Shown here one piece after another: positions 3,167 to 6,511 of a DNA stretch of 33,166 bases. Each line of letters starts with the position of its first letter. Position 1 is the first letter of the stretch. Below the pieces are notes generated by a model, which was given only the letters and a program-made list of their open reading frames with translations, was not told where the DNA came from and made no database searches. The stretch lies in contig CALWDJ010000026.1 of the NCBI GenBank assembly GCA_944376655.1, positions 1-33,166 of the forward strand, given 5' to 3'. Source of the DNA: an uncultured Clostridia bacterium. GTDB lineage: Bacteria > Bacillota > Clostridia > Oscillospirales > Acutalibacteraceae. The position numbers were made by a program, and so were the translations under genes.

Positions 3167-3200
3167 AAATCTCACCTGTCCCGCGTATTTCTTTTATATT

Positions 3201-3229
3201 ATTATATTTACATACAGTCTTTTTTTCAC
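3201..3229 (-). promoter_or_regulatory. Probable promoter of degV
   Basis: On the minus strand a consensus TATAAT (3201-3206) is preceded at 17 bases by GTGAAA (3224-3229), a 4/6 match to the -35 box. It lies 35 bases from the degV start. The weak -35 suggests help from, or control by, the repeats at 3250-3301. Confidence 0.45.
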
Positions 3230-3249
3230 TCTAATTCTGATTTTTAACA

Positions 3250-3301
3250 TTCTACCGTATAAAAATACACGATAGAATAAAAAAATACGCTCTACCGTGA
3301 T
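3250..3301. promoter_or_regulatory. Operator-like cluster of TCTACCGT half-sites upstream of degV
   Basis: TTCTACCGTAT (3250-3260) faces an inverted partner ATACACGATAGAA (3265-3277), and a third copy, CTCTACCGTGAT (3290-3301), repeats the first orientation exactly 40 bases on, about four helical turns. The cluster sits just upstream of the degV -35 region. I do not recognise the binding protein; this is inference from symmetry and position. Confidence 0.4.
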
Positions 3302-3311
3302 TAGAAAACGC

Positions 3312-3405
3312 TGTGTTTATACGGTCCGGACAGACGGAAAAACAGAATGCGGCTTTTCGCCGCGAAAAAATTATATTTCAGGTTTCCCGACAGACGGAAA
3401 AACAG
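3312..3405. repeat. Terminator-associated intergenic repeat, copy A
   Basis: A 17-base direct repeat, GACAGACGGAAAAACAG, occurs at 3329-3345 and 3389-3405, 60 bases apart. Between them are a GCGGC/GCCGC hairpin (3350-3364) and TTTCAGGTTTCCCGACAGAC. The latter matches TTTCAGGTTTATCGGTAGAC in copy B (about 10.95 kb, opposite strand) and GGTTTACCGACAGAC in copy C (about 11.57 kb). All copies abut transcription terminators. Confidence 0.6.
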
Positions 3406-3432
3406 TCCTGACGCTTCACATCAGGACTGTTT
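3395..3432 (-). terminator. Strong intrinsic terminator ending the orphan RNA
   Basis: ACAGTCCTGA (3402-3411) and TCAGGACTGT (3421-3430) form a perfect 10-bp stem with a 9-base loop. On the minus strand it runs into five T residues. Flanking A/T bases let it act on the plus strand too, but the minus-strand promoter at 3865-3893 makes minus the likely direction. Confidence 0.88.
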
Positions 3433-3858
3433 AAATTTTTTTACGTATTCAGTTTAAATGTTTGCTCTGAATTAAATCTTTATTCGTAACCGTTAATTCG
3501 GTATCATTTAATATAAATTGAAACTGTCGGGATTGCTTTACGCATTGCAAAAACAATTTACTATCATATAAGAAGAATGCAATTTAACCGAGCGCTGAAT
3601 TTGAACTGTACATTGGAATCACCCATAACAATTTATTTGAAAGCGATTTTCCTCACAATCATATAAATCACCTGTTAAGGTTTTAATATGTGAATCCCCG
3701 TAAGGGAATTGAAAACTTTAGTGCATTGGACTCACCGTTAAATTATTTTGTTCGCGTTGTCGCTTCTTACTTCATTGGAATCACCACTTTCATTTTATTC
3801 TGACAATGAGCCGGTGGAGTATCCTCTCTCAATGTTTTCAACTCCTTTCCCTTTGTCT
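3395..3858 (-). ncRNA. Candidate orphan structured RNA, about 460 nt, no known class recognised
   Basis: A consensus promoter and a strong terminator bracket this stretch, which has no reading frame longer than about 25 codons. Paired segments visible on the minus strand: a 12-bp long-range helix GGAGUUGAAAAC (3834-3845) with GUUUUCAAUUCC (3705-3716); an enclosed hairpin CCAC/GUGG plus UCAUU/AAUGA (3784-3817); UCACA/UGUGA (3653-3693) enclosing ACCU-UAAC-AGGU (3670-3681); ACCG/CGGU (3489-3502); AUUCAG/CUGAAU (3447-3472). A hairpin AUUCCC-UUAC-GGGGAU (3694-3709) competes with the long helix. Three copies of GGUGADUCCAAUG occur inside. I see no tmRNA, RNase P, SRP or 6S hallmarks. ROOL, GOLLD, OLE and raiA RNAs remain possible because I cannot run covariance models. 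degV has its own promoter downstream, so a leader role is unlikely. Confidence 0.72.
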
Positions 3859-3864
3859 GGCCTT

Positions 3865-3893
3865 ATTATAAAGCATAATTTATAGTTTGTCAA
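3865..3893 (-). promoter_or_regulatory. Perfect sigma-A promoter driving the orphan RNA
   Basis: On the minus strand TTGACA (3888-3893) and TATAAT (3865-3870) are separated by 17 bases, an exact consensus promoter. The predicted start is near 3858. No long reading frame follows, so the product should be an abundant untranslated or barely translated RNA. Confidence 0.88.
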
Positions 3894-3939
3894 GTACTTT
3901 TTAAAAACTTTTATATAAATTAACAATTTATTAAAAATT

Positions 3940-3968
3940 ATGGCAAGTTTCCGAAAATGTGTTAAAAT
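3940..3968 (+). promoter_or_regulatory. Extended -10 promoter of the ABC exporter
   Basis: ATGGCA (3940-3945) lies 17 bases before TAAAAT (3963-3968), which is preceded by an extended -10 TG (TGTTAAAAT). The start codon is 42 bases on. It is back to back with the orphan RNA promoter, with about 46 bases between the -35 boxes. Confidence 0.55.
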
Positions 3969-4009
3969 ATTATATAACTGAAGAAATTATTGAAACAGGG
4001 AAATGAATA

Positions 4010-5905
4010 ATGAGACCAATGAATCCTCCTCCCGCGGGAATGAGAGGCCCGAACCGCATCGGCGGCGGTCCGCGCGGTTATCTTACTGAAGATGAGAAAA
4101 AGAACAAACCGAAAATAACAAAAGCGCTGCTGCTGCGTATACTCGGTTATCTGAAGCCTTACAAATGGCAGTTTTTCGCCGTGTTTGCCGCGATATTCGT
4201 ATCCGCTGTGCTTGGGCTTTTCCCCTCAATTATAACCGGAAAAATAGTGGACGCGATTGTGGACGACAGCCGGGAAATCAAAATACTCGTACAGCTTGTC
4301 GTTCTCGCCTTCGTGGTGCTTGCCGCGGCGCAGGTGATAAGCGTGCTTGAGCAGTACATAAACTCCTGGATATCCCAGAAAATCATTTACGATATGCGCA
4401 ACCAGATGTATGACCATCTCCAGCATATGCCGCACGCCTTCTTTACCGGTGAAAAGCAGGGCGACATCATAACAAGAATGAACAGCGATATCAACGGCGT
4501 AAGCTCGATAATATCGGTAATGCTCACCTCACTTGTCAGCAATGTGCTCACGGTAGCGACCTCTGTTTTTTATCTGTTCTACACCGACTGGCGGCTGGCG
4601 ATAGTAGGGCTCGTGGTGCTTCCGCTGCTCATTCTTCCGACAAAGGCGGTCGGAAAAAAGCGCTGGGAGCTTGTAAGCGAGGCGCAGGGCAAGCAGGACG
4701 AGCTTAACCAGCACGTTGACGAGACCCTTTCTGTCAGCGGCTCGATGCTCGTAAAGCTGTTCACCAAGGAAAAGGTGGAATACGAGAAATTCCGCGCCAT
4801 CAACAACGAGGCGACAAAAATAACGATAAAGGAGCAGCGCGCCGGAAGCTGGTTCCACGTCTTCCTCGGAATGTTTATCCAGATAGCGCCGCTGCTTATA
4901 TATTTTGTCGGTGGATTTCTTATAATCAGCCGCTTTGACGCGGGTCTTACCGTCGGCGACATATCGGTGGTGGTATCTCTCGTCAACAGGCTTTATCAGC
5001 CGGTGCGACAGCTGCTTGACCTTCAGGTGAATTTTGTGCGCTCGCTCGCACTTTTCACCAGATTATTCGAGTACTACGACCGTAAAATAGAAATCGACAA
5101 TCCGGAAAATCCGGTAAAGCCCCCGCTTGACGACTGCAGCGTCGAGTTCTGCGACGTGCATTTCTCATATGAGAAGGAGCACGAGATTCTGAAAGGCATC
5201 AGCTTTTTTGTGCCCGACGGGAAAATGTACGCGATAGTCGGCACGTCAGGAGCCGGAAAGTCCACCATTATAGGTATGATACCGAGGCTTTATGACGTCA
5301 CCTCCGGCTGCGTGAAGGTCGCCGGCACCGACGTAAGGGATTATGACCTTTCCTATCTCAGGACACATATCGGAATCGTAACGCAGGACACATATCTTTT
5401 CAACGGCACTATACTTGAAAACCTGCTTTACGCAAAGCCTGACGCCACAAGGGAGGAAATAGAAAACGCCTGCCGCGTAGCCAACATTTACGACTTTATA
5501 AACGGTCTGCCCGACAAATTCGATACGGTTGTGGGAAACCGCGGACTAAAGCTGTCAGGCGGTGAAAAGCAGCGTGTATCTATCGCGCGCGTAGTGCTTA
5601 AAGACCCGAAAATCCTGATACTCGACGAAGCGACCTCGTCGCTTGACTCGATTTCCGAAAGCCTTATACAGTCAGCTCTCAGCGCCGTAATGAAAGGACG
5701 CACAAGCATAGTCATCGCACACAGGCTGTCAACCGTTATAGCCGCCGATAAAATAATGGTGATAGAAAACGGCGTAATAACCGAAACCGGCTCGCACGAG
5801 GAGCTTATAGAAACAAGCAGGAAATACCGCGAGCTTTACGAGACCCAGTTTAAAAAGGTGATTGAATACGAAAAACAGCACAGTGAAAAACATTTGAGCA
5901 AATAA
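4010..5905 (+). CDS. ABC exporter, fused membrane and ATPase domains
   Basis: This 631-residue half-transporter is of the MsbA/BmrA type and probably acts as a homodimer exporting lipids, drugs or peptides. A proline- and glycine-rich cytoplasmic N-terminus (about 1-40) precedes six membrane helices (about 45-330). The ATPase domain has Walker A GTSGAGKST at about 411-419, a Q-loop (IVTQDTYLF), the signature LSGGEKQR at about 515, Walker B ILILDEATSSLD and the H-loop IAHRLST. All catalytic residues are present. A short basic tail follows. There is no partner half-transporter, so a heterodimer is not suggested. It is a single gene divergent from the orphan RNA. Substrate cannot be inferred. 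Confidence 0.93.
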   Translation: MRPMNPPPAGMRGPNRIGGGPRGYLTEDEKKNKPKITKALLLRILGYLKPYKWQFFAVFAAIFVSAVLGLFPSIITGKIVDAIVDDSREIKILVQLVVLAFVVLAAAQVISVLEQYINSWISQKIIYDMRNQMYDHLQHMPHAFFTGEKQGDIITRMNSDINGVSSIISVMLTSLVSNVLTVATSVFYLFYTDWRLAIVGLVVLPLLILPTKAVGKKRWELVSEAQGKQDELNQHVDETLSVSGSMLVKLFTKEKVEYEKFRAINNEATKITIKEQRAGSWFHVFLGMFIQIAPLLIYFVGGFLIISRFDAGLTVGDISVVVSLVNRLYQPVRQLLDLQVNFVRSLALFTRLFEYYDRKIEIDNPENPVKPPLDDCSVEFCDVHFSYEKEHEILKGISFFVPDGKMYAIVGTSGAGKSTIIGMIPRLYDVTSGCVKVAGTDVRDYDLSYLRTHIGIVTQDTYLFNGTILENLLYAKPDATREEIENACRVANIYDFINGLPDKFDTVVGNRGLKLSGGEKQRVSIARVVLKDPKILILDEATSSLDSISESLIQSALSAVMKGRTSIVIAHRLSTVIAADKIMVIENGVITETGSHEELIETSRKYRELYETQFKKVIEYEKQHSEKHLSK

Positions 5906-5987: not shown

Positions 5988-6302
5988 ATGGACGAGATAA
6001 AAAACAAAGACGAATACAATCCCGACATCGTAACCCTTTCGGACGACGACGGGAAAGAATATACCTTTGAGGTGCTTGACGCTATCGAGACTGACACGGG
6101 GCGCTATCTGGCAATGCTTCCGATATATGACGACCCCAAGGATCAGCTCAATGACAGCGGTGAGCTTGTCATAGTCAAGGTCGGTGAGGAAGAGGACGGC
6201 GACGAGTATTATTACGAGATAGAGGACGACGACGAGTACGAAACAATCGCCGATGCGTTTGTGGAAAGACTTGAGGATTTCTTTGAGATAGACGATAAAT
6301 AA
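5988..6302 (+). CDS. DUF1292 domain protein (YrzB-like)
   Basis: This acidic protein of 104 residues has the DUF1292 pattern: the VTLSDDDGKEYTFEVLDAI strand pair, RYLAMLPIYDD, then a second acidic strand pair ending in a helix (ADAFVERLEDFFEI). Function is unknown for the family; in many Firmicutes it sits near alaS and the Holliday junction resolvase gene ruvX, which are not here. CGGAGG six bases before the ATG supports the start. The promoter for 6S RNA overlaps its last ten codons. Confidence 0.9.
   Translation: MDEIKNKDEYNPDIVTLSDDDGKEYTFEVLDAIETDTGRYLAMLPIYDDPKDQLNDSGELVIVKVGEEEDGDEYYYEIEDDDEYETIADAFVERLEDFFEIDDK
6271..6299 (+). promoter_or_regulatory. Candidate promoter of 6S RNA, inside the DUF1292 gene end
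   Basis: TTGAGG (6271-6276) and GATAAA (6294-6299) are 17 bases apart. Transcription would begin near 6306, just before the closing stem of the 6S fold. The overlap with the DUF1292 coding end is inferred from spacing only. Confidence 0.5.
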
Positions 6303-6305
6303 ATT

Positions 6306-6511
6306 TTGCTGTATGTCCTGCGCTGTTCGCGGACCGCGTCTTATATAACCCTACAACTTTTATTTTCGGGGCCAAAGCTCGTACGGCGGGTTTGCAGACC
6401 TCCCGCGGCTGTGCCGAGTTCGGAAGAAGGGAGCGCGAAACCGTGCGGCCGGCACCCACCTGCTTTACGCAGGTTATCTTAAGCGCATTACGGCAGGGCG
6501 GGACAATTCAG
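6306..6511 (+). ncRNA. ssrS: 6S RNA
   Basis: 6S RNA binds sigma-A RNA polymerase by mimicking an open promoter and dampens transcription in stationary phase. The ends pair: TGTCCTGCGCTG (6314-6325) with CAGGGCGGGACA (6494-6505), 11 of 12 pairs including one G-U, and CTG/CAG outside it. Next to the 5' arm is the TGTTCGC segment typical of 6S, followed by an AT-rich strand (TTATATAACCC) that suits the central bubble, and then a long GC-rich terminal arm. Length near 200 nt fits. A GGAA-capped hairpin inside briefly suggests SRP RNA, but the conserved SRP loop is missing. Confidence 0.82.

Follow-up and report, generated by a model that had tools for sequence, protein, structure and literature searches.

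What is transcribed from a strong promoter when no conventional gene follows it? This question is raised by a locus in a 33,166-nucleotide stretch of DNA (the window) from an uncultured Clostridia bacterium of the family Acutalibacteraceae. The initial annotation placed there, on the minus strand and between degV and an ABC exporter, an exact consensus promoter, 460 bases without a conventional gene and a terminator hairpin, and proposed a big ornate orphan RNA. Here we describe what the transcript contains, where it occurs and what it may do.

The transcript and its boundaries

The promoter, at 3893-3865 on the minus strand, matches the consensus TTGACA-17-TATAAT at 12/12 positions, as annotated. 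It is conserved in the genus. Across 60 homologous loci (window included), TTGACA is kept in 58, the 17-nt spacer in 58 and TATAAT in 53. The terminator hairpin with its T tract on the minus strand was also correctly recognized; its stem is a perfect 12-bp inverted repeat (3400-3411 with 3421-3432). The claim that no conventional gene is present stands in that 3395-3858 contains no ORF of 50 aa or more, but five short ORFs with Shine-Dalgarno sequences inside the same interval had been overlooked. The boundaries are as follows.

3865-3893, minus strand: sigma-70 type promoter TTGACA-17-TATAAT, read from the sequence and conserved in the genus
3399-3858, minus strand: the RNA, start estimated at about 3858 from the position of the -10 box, end at the terminator T tract; homologues found
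3399-3432, minus strand: intrinsic terminator, inverted repeat and T tract

The stretch 3325-3405 contains two 21-nt direct repeats (95% alike, spacing 60). Just behind the terminator, at 3363-3349 (minus strand), there is also another small hairpin with a run of T. The repeats and this hairpin may represent a duplication of the terminator region. Farther on, in the interval that separates the RNA from degV, a perfect 10-bp inverted repeat, ACCGTATAAA/TTTATACGGT, is located at 3254-3325. It could be an operator or a part of the degV promoter region.

Known RNA classes and predicted fold

Rfam (release 15) gave no match at gathering score in 3395-3858, and the sub-threshold matches on 3180-4020 were far under their gathering scores. 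No known large RNA (ROOL, GOLLD, OLE, raiA or the rest of Rfam 15) was found on the RNA in 14, 18 and 20 related loci scanned. The 6S RNA model (RF00013) matches only 6312-6508 in the window, not the RNA. The tmRNA model (RF00023) located the tmRNA of the genome at G000:C10 and nothing else over the cut-off, the RNA locus included. A CRISPR repeat was considered for the CRISPR-like stretch at 3691-3715 and rejected, as this stretch is present once in 3180-4010 and has no spaced copies there. The RNA is an orphan, strongly promoted and of a class absent from Rfam, in agreement with the initial annotation, which had recognized none of the known classes.

The fold of the whole window transcript has a z-score of -3.16, which is driven by the terminator hairpin. 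Without the terminator the z-score is -0.87, and 17 of 100 shuffled sequences fold as well (window RNA only). A long-range 12-bp helix proposed earlier can indeed be drawn and is paired in predicted folds of the window RNA, but it is not clearly kept in the relatives (four sequences, read by eye). The conserved blocks correspond to the repeated elements described below, not to helices. Thus an ornate structure is unsupported in the window's species, whereas the orphan status, the strong promoter and the place outside Rfam remain from the original description.

Micro-ORFs and tandem ribosome-binding elements

Tandem ribosome-binding elements of the form GGUGA-K-UCC-R are arranged along the RNA, with a mean of 2.98 per RNA (60 loci). 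Most are directly followed by AUG and by an in-frame stop one or two codons later; in the others AAG or AAA replaces the AUG. Among 204 TGANTCC sites in all RNAs, AUG comes next in 134 and AAG/AAA in 58. The window RNA is organized as follows, all on the minus strand.

3767-3832, minus strand: micro-ORF A, TTG start, MREDTPPAHCQNKMKVVIPMK and stop, AAAGGAG upstream, from ORF reading; in relatives usually about 12 codons with PP
3776-3791, minus strand: element B, GAAAGTGGTGATTCCA, extended complement of the 16S 3' end, from the sequence
3767-3775, minus strand: micro-ORF B, ATG-AAG-TAA (M-K-stop); in the window's species it shares its frame with the end of A
3727-3736, minus strand: element C, GGTGAGTCCA, from the sequence
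3718-3726, minus strand: micro-ORF C, ATG-CAC-TAA (M-H-stop), from ORF reading
3693-3710, minus strand: small hairpin AATTCCC-TTAC-GGGGATT between C and D; part of the genus has hairpins of this kind when read by eye
3663-3672, minus strand: ribosome-binding site of D, GGTGATTTAT, no CCR, from the sequence
3633-3662, minus strand: micro-ORF D, MIVRKIAFK and stop, 9 codons, end AAA-TAA, from ORF reading
3614-3623, minus strand: element E, GGTGATTCCA, from the sequence
3584-3613, minus strand: micro-ORF E, MYSSNSALG and stop; MY[NSR] and stop in many relatives

In the genus, micro-ORF B is usually ATG-AAG-TAA, and C and E begin with ATG-TAC, ATG-CAC or similar, mostly with an early stop. The second codons (101 in the genus) are TAC in 48 and AAG in 28, followed by AAC, TAT, AAA, CAC and others; ACT, GTT and AGA are found elsewhere. 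The stop codons vary as well (TAA 87, TAG 10 and TGA 4 of 101).

The stops are concentrated in the frame of the AUG. Among the 129 AUG elements with distinct downstream sequence in the 60 loci, 99 have a stop within three codons in the frame of the AUG (frame 0), compared to 22 for frame +1 and 12 for frame +2, counts taken over related rows that are not independent and mostly from metagenome-assembled genomes (MAGs). An earlier count over 57 loci gave 100, 21 and 12 of 132 for the same frames. Loci L080 and L096 are included in the 60-locus counts. The same trend is observed outside the genus, with 13, 6 and 4 of 23 and 12, 4 and 2 of 21. For the AAG/AAA elements the frame signal is weak, with stops at 13/18 and 17/21 in frame 0 and at 12/18 and 11/21 in frame +1.

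The AAG/AAA elements, in which the frame is kept and GTG, ATG or TTG stands at the place of the GTG in GGTGAGTCC, prompted the idea that this GTG is the sole start. We did not adopt it as a general rule, on two grounds: one-base insertions between GGTGA and ATG break the frame in some relatives, and the spacing to the upstream Shine-Dalgarno sequence would be too short.

The two longer micro-ORFs behave differently from the start-stop units. ORF A contains PP or QPA in 48 of 60 genus loci, and E-x-x-P type sequences are found in other genera. In 44 aligned cases, which had been chosen by PP, the first proline codon is CCA in 32 and CCG in 12, and the second is CCT in 21, CCG in 11, CCA in 10 and CCC in 2. 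Around PP the pN/pS ratio is 0.61, not clearly low, with 43 of 343 column shuffles as low. ORF A may be selected for its peptide. ORF D is present in 29 of 57 parsed loci, about half of the genus. The search for it gave 37 matches, one of which (L097) is ORF A, leaving 36 cases. Exactly 9 codons are found in 31 of these 36 (search range 7-10), TAA is the end in all, and indels are multiples of three. Conservation of the D peptide, checked by pN/pS, is absent: its amino acids are not conserved beyond chance (pN/pS 0.88; 34 of 168 shuffles as low). An alignment of the hairpin ahead of D was weak and was set aside.

Predicted extended pairing with the 16S rRNA 3' end

The elements are complementary to the 16S 3' end, 5'-CUGGAUCACCUCC, to either side of a single bulged base. 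In the predicted duplex GGUGA forms the usual Shine-Dalgarno pairs with UCACC, UCC-R pairs with UGGA, and the one mRNA base between them is bulged. The predicted 16S complement of an element is therefore longer than a normal Shine-Dalgarno site. In the genus the 16S 3' end reads GGTGCGGCTGGATCACCTCCTTT (L198; seen in 1 of 70 genomes). It was not found in the window's own genome; rRNA is often missing from MAGs, and the 16S tail hardly varies.

Several comparisons set the elements apart from ordinary initiation sites. All 99 micro-ORFs with 5-nt spacing, taken from all RNAs and picked regardless of CC, have CC at -3/-2. The base after CC is A in 57, G in 38, C in 4 and T in none, as expected since pairing with U is predicted at this position. 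The CC and purine are thus explained by UCC-R pairing with UGGA, and we do not favor the idea that CCR is present only as a proline codon. At position -4, A is found in 24 of 99, which costs one pair. Among automatically called ordinary starts in the fetched loci, for which a Shine-Dalgarno sequence was required, CC precedes ATG in 2 of 129 and the full element context in 0 of 129. Among longer ORFs (8-12 codons) that share the binding-site pattern, 18 of 52 have CC. The string GGTGA[GT]TCC occurs 93 times in 60 RNAs, compared to a mean of 0.02 in 50 first-order resamplings. Beyond the first 450 nt it occurs six times in 839 kb, and at least five of these look like later copies of the same RNA.

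The predicted duplex energy averages -12.1 kcal/mol over 136 AUG elements and -12.2 over 41 AAG/AAA elements, whereas 128 ordinary starts average -9.8. The CUGG part contributes 3.85 and 4.11 in the two classes of element and 0.61 in the ordinary starts. The gain in the elements is partly by construction because the element pattern contains CC; the 99/99 CC count is the independent test. The bulged base is kept in all elements. The unbulged complement, GGTGATCC, has zero occurrences, and pairing alone does not explain this absence.

Distribution

The homologue search suggested with the initial annotation was successful. BLAST over 99 genomes (the window's own included) matched 33, all in the same genus and mostly over the first 275 bases. 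A model of the 5' part (R1, 27 rows) matched 61 of 70 genus genomes at E<=0.01, and 38 of 39 high-quality ones. We accepted 60 of the 70, namely 59 with E <1e-8 and the truncated G035; G053 (L113) is doubtful and was left out of the count.

Within the family, 23 of 250 genomes (17 of 135 genera) match R1, and 65 of 398 genomes (32 of 135 genera) match R3, a broader model, at E<=1e-4, own genus included in both cases; the weakest of these matches may be chance. Twenty family loci were fetched, and on reading elements were seen in 17 and absent in 3 (L140, L144 and L145), which were dropped. An order-wide search with model R2 matched 15 of 394 genomes, mostly weakly. Four of 12 order loci, weak R2 matches (L118, L121, L123 and L125), were dropped on reading. 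A search of 391 genomes of the class with a narrow pattern, GGTGAKTCCRATGTAC, matched 8, and the matches outside the order lie in ordinary-looking sequence.

Loci centered on DUF1292, a gene that recurs beside the RNA (see below), extend the range to a second family, f26. With a loose pattern and no shuffled control, all 9 f26 loci with a placed DUF1292 have at least one motif match upstream on the divergent strand, two of them only one, and 6 of 9 DUF1292-centered loci in the home family have a match, plus L195. Transcripts in f26 and in these home-family loci would measure about 0.5-1.4 kb by a crude terminator search, which found a terminator-like stem in 74 of 86 regions. The 30 best-scoring DUF1292 loci of a 147-genome survey were scanned within 1.5 kb; 27 of them come from other families and have at most two scattered motif matches each. 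The 23 named carrier records are MAGs, many from herbivore guts.

A single element behind a promoter is found in a third family, f14 (L202, genome G073). In L202 the promoter is followed by GGTGAGTCCGATGTACTAA and, about 400 nt on, by a strong hairpin without a clear T run; the element region is located upstream of what looks like mreB. L202 is a possible third-family member. In yet another family, f20, L117 contains a promoter-like stretch, a 9-codon ORF ending in AAA-TAA, a short gap and GAGTGAGTCCATTG, an arrangement that resembles the D/E pair. The element context is rare ahead of a long ORF, but in L118 it is found at the start of an ordinary gene, presumably a phosphoglucomutase, as GAGGTGAGTCCAATG. 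Locus L126 (G628:C54) is typical of the window's genus and includes the ABC exporter, DUF1292 and 6S RNA, yet its genome belongs to a different genus; this reflects either contig contamination or transfer.

Gene neighborhood

Two features recur on the divergent side of the RNA.

5988-6302, plus strand: DUF1292 gene, recurrent divergent neighbor; here the ABC exporter (4010-5905) is in between
6312-6508, plus strand: 6S RNA (RF00013), recurrent in the cluster, from the Rfam match

DUF1292 is nearby in 43 of 59 genus loci and divergent from the RNA in 43 of 43. The distance from the DUF1292 start to the RNA promoter has a median of 173 nt and a range of 127-2270, the long distances reflecting an ABC exporter in between. 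In the window, 6S RNA follows DUF1292 closely. Among related loci scanned, the fetched stretch also contains 6S RNA in 6 of 14, 14 of 18 and 6 of 20, the second family included. In the window it is overlapped by short mechanical ORFs. Another RNA, Gut-1 (RF01706), is found in L090 at 5177-5253, near 6S RNA and a tRNA. In the literature we found no paper joining DUF1292 and 6S RNA.

On the other side, no conserved gene was seen downstream of the terminator (DegV counted, other genes read by eye). DegV is downstream in 2 of 59 fetched genus loci; in other genera a DegV homologue is found on the DUF1292 side in 5 of 9 DUF1292-centered loci. The ABC exporter adjoins the RNA in part of the genus, and degV is not a recurrent neighbor on its downstream side. 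The judgment that the context is not leader-like agrees with these counts. We rejected a cis leader or attenuator, as no conserved same-strand gene was seen downstream in the DegV count or in the reading of other genes by eye.

A candidate 30S decoy and its alternatives

At the level of sequence we find a conserved locus, a repeated extended complement of 16S rRNA, in-frame start-stop ORFs and a cluster with 6S RNA; the trapping of ribosomes is what we infer from them. 6S RNA sequesters RNA polymerase. Our preferred reading, to which we give a probability of about 0.4, is that the RNA engages ribosomes without yielding a protein. It would act as a 30S decoy or buffer through which free ribosomes are metered, and would be to translation what the neighboring 6S RNA is to transcription.

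In such a mechanism, the long duplex with the 16S tail would capture a 30S subunit. With UCCR (the E-site and the adjoining -4 position) paired to 16S rRNA, the AUG would be kept from its proper seat in the P site and the complex would be held; it is expected to be slow because UCCR pairing competes with AUG placement in the P site. When initiation wins, a two- or three-residue peptide would be made, followed by stop and release near the next element. The AUG-stop micro-ORFs would therefore act as slow exits for captured subunits, and the AAG/AAA elements as pure traps that hold 30S longer. In effect, 6S RNA buffers RNA polymerase, and the present RNA would do the same for free 30S subunits.

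Some observations count against the decoy reading, among them the A at -4 in about a quarter of the micro-ORFs, the absence of the unbulged form, the presence of CC in some of the ORFs of 8-12 codons and the weak frame signal of the AAG/AAA elements. In addition, predicted openness across 48 RNAs is 0.40 for GGTGA (n=88), 0.25 for the D site (n=21) and 0.42 for the A site (n=24), compared to 0.48 for the background. The ribosome-binding sites are predicted to be no more open than background, and accessibility gives the decoy reading no support. Possible selection on the ORF A peptide argues against a pure decoy, which would not need it.

Lambda bar RNA contains AUG-NNN-stop ORFs with strong sites that release dipeptidyl-tRNA. 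By analogy, the RNA could be a minigene array in which drop-off of peptidyl-tRNA ties up tRNAs or peptidyl-tRNA hydrolase and lowers translation. Its two- and three-codon micro-ORFs have the features of bar-like minigenes, namely a strong site, an AUG and a stop after one or two codons. AAG (Lys), the second commonest second codon in the genus, also counts for this reading because fMet-Lys, like fMet-Phe, is reported to be fast in drop-off (PMC10192219). However, the second codons vary, so that no single tRNA would be the target, and the UCCR context and AUG-less elements are left unexplained; we consider the minigene array unlikely. Similar doubts apply to the idea that GGUGAKUCCR is the binding site of an unknown protein, with its likeness to a ribosome-binding site being secondary. 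The AAG/AAA elements, which keep the motif without a start codon in the usual place, and the bulged base kept in every element would suit a protein site. Such a site gives no reason for the AUG after 134 of the 204 TGANTCC sites or for the in-frame stops, which makes it improbable.

Other alternatives place the function in the longer ORFs or in the fold. ORF A, with acidic residues and prolines near its N terminus, could abort or pause ribosomes, and the RNA would report the state of translation through its folding, stability or termination. PP or QPA in most genus loci, synonymous variation at both proline codons in the 44 aligned cases and the E-x-x-P type sequences of other genera are consistent with such a sensor, and in Salmonella the acidic residues of the short ORF mgtQ impede its translation (PMC8092293). 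Yet by pattern such an ORF A is missing from 12 of the 60 genus loci (that of L083 is too long for the pattern), the pN/pS around PP is not clearly low in cases that were chosen by PP, no conserved gene was seen downstream of the terminator, and the repeated elements are left without a reason. This reading is rather unlikely. The frame-keeping length changes in D and the synonymous change at PP in A would also fit a polycistronic mRNA that encodes A and D as real micropeptides, perhaps for export through the ABC transporter that adjoins the RNA in part of the genus. But the residues of D evolve freely, peptides of two or three residues are hardly products, and more than half of the 43 loci have no ABC gene between DUF1292 and the RNA because the median distance between DUF1292 and the promoter is 173 nt. 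We regard it as very unlikely. The ornate structured RNA first proposed, in which the micro-ORFs would be incidental, gains from the versions of about 0.5-1.4 kb in the second family and in relatives with larger genomes, where hairpins are visible by eye. In the window's species the fold without the terminator is ordinary, and conservation sits in elements rather than helices. We consider an ornate RNA quite improbable.

Comparison with known systems

6S RNA mimics a promoter for RNA polymerase via its secondary structure. The RNA described here resembles it in being free-standing and encoded in the same small cluster, and by analogy it would titrate a central machine of gene expression by substrate mimicry. 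It differs in offering ribosome-binding sites with little structure. The lambda bar minigenes are also two-codon ORFs with strong ribosome-binding sites, whereas our RNA is a chromosomal tandem array with varied second codons, UCCR pairing to 16S rRNA and AUG-less elements.

MgtL is a short leader ORF with acidic residues and a proline near its start. ORF A shares these features with MgtL and with the mgtQ leader ORF (PMC8092293), but those are located upstream of a gene they control and no conserved downstream gene was seen for our RNA. OLE RNA is a large bacterial RNA likewise tied to translation initiation via an SD/anti-SD duplex (PMC12054373). OLE has a mimic of the 16S tail and binds bS21, while our RNA has the complementary side, repeated; OLE gave no Rfam match in the window or in the 14, 18 and 20 related loci scanned. 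ROOL, GOLLD and raiA (ModT) are also orphan bacterial RNAs of hundreds of bases (PMC12286853). Unlike them, our RNA has no Rfam match and no strong structure in its species. In a literature search on sponge or decoy RNAs with Shine-Dalgarno sequences, minigenes and large noncoding RNAs, with subscription journals mostly outside its scope, this RNA was not described in the titles or abstracts of the matches listed.

Implications

Our analysis tentatively points to a wider claim, which we regard as possible but doubtful. Gut Clostridia of at least two families in one order may encode an undescribed class of translation-decoy RNA beside 6S RNA, in which a bulged duplex that reaches 16S nucleotides past the anti-Shine-Dalgarno core would capture the 30S subunit and AUG-stop exits would open at a rate set by initiation factors or fMet-tRNA. 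Function aside, it is unexpected that a conserved transcript should consist in large part of two- and three-codon ORFs, which gene callers that set a minimum length would overlook. If the 30S subunit is held, bacterial start-stop ORFs would have a use, and pairing with 16S rRNA would have a mode that reaches past the Shine-Dalgarno core. The RNA would then meter ribosome supply via base-pairing with rRNA and would be genomically paired with the meter of RNA polymerase. If the decoy class is real, the supplies of RNA polymerase and of ribosomes would be buffered in these bacteria by two neighboring RNAs.
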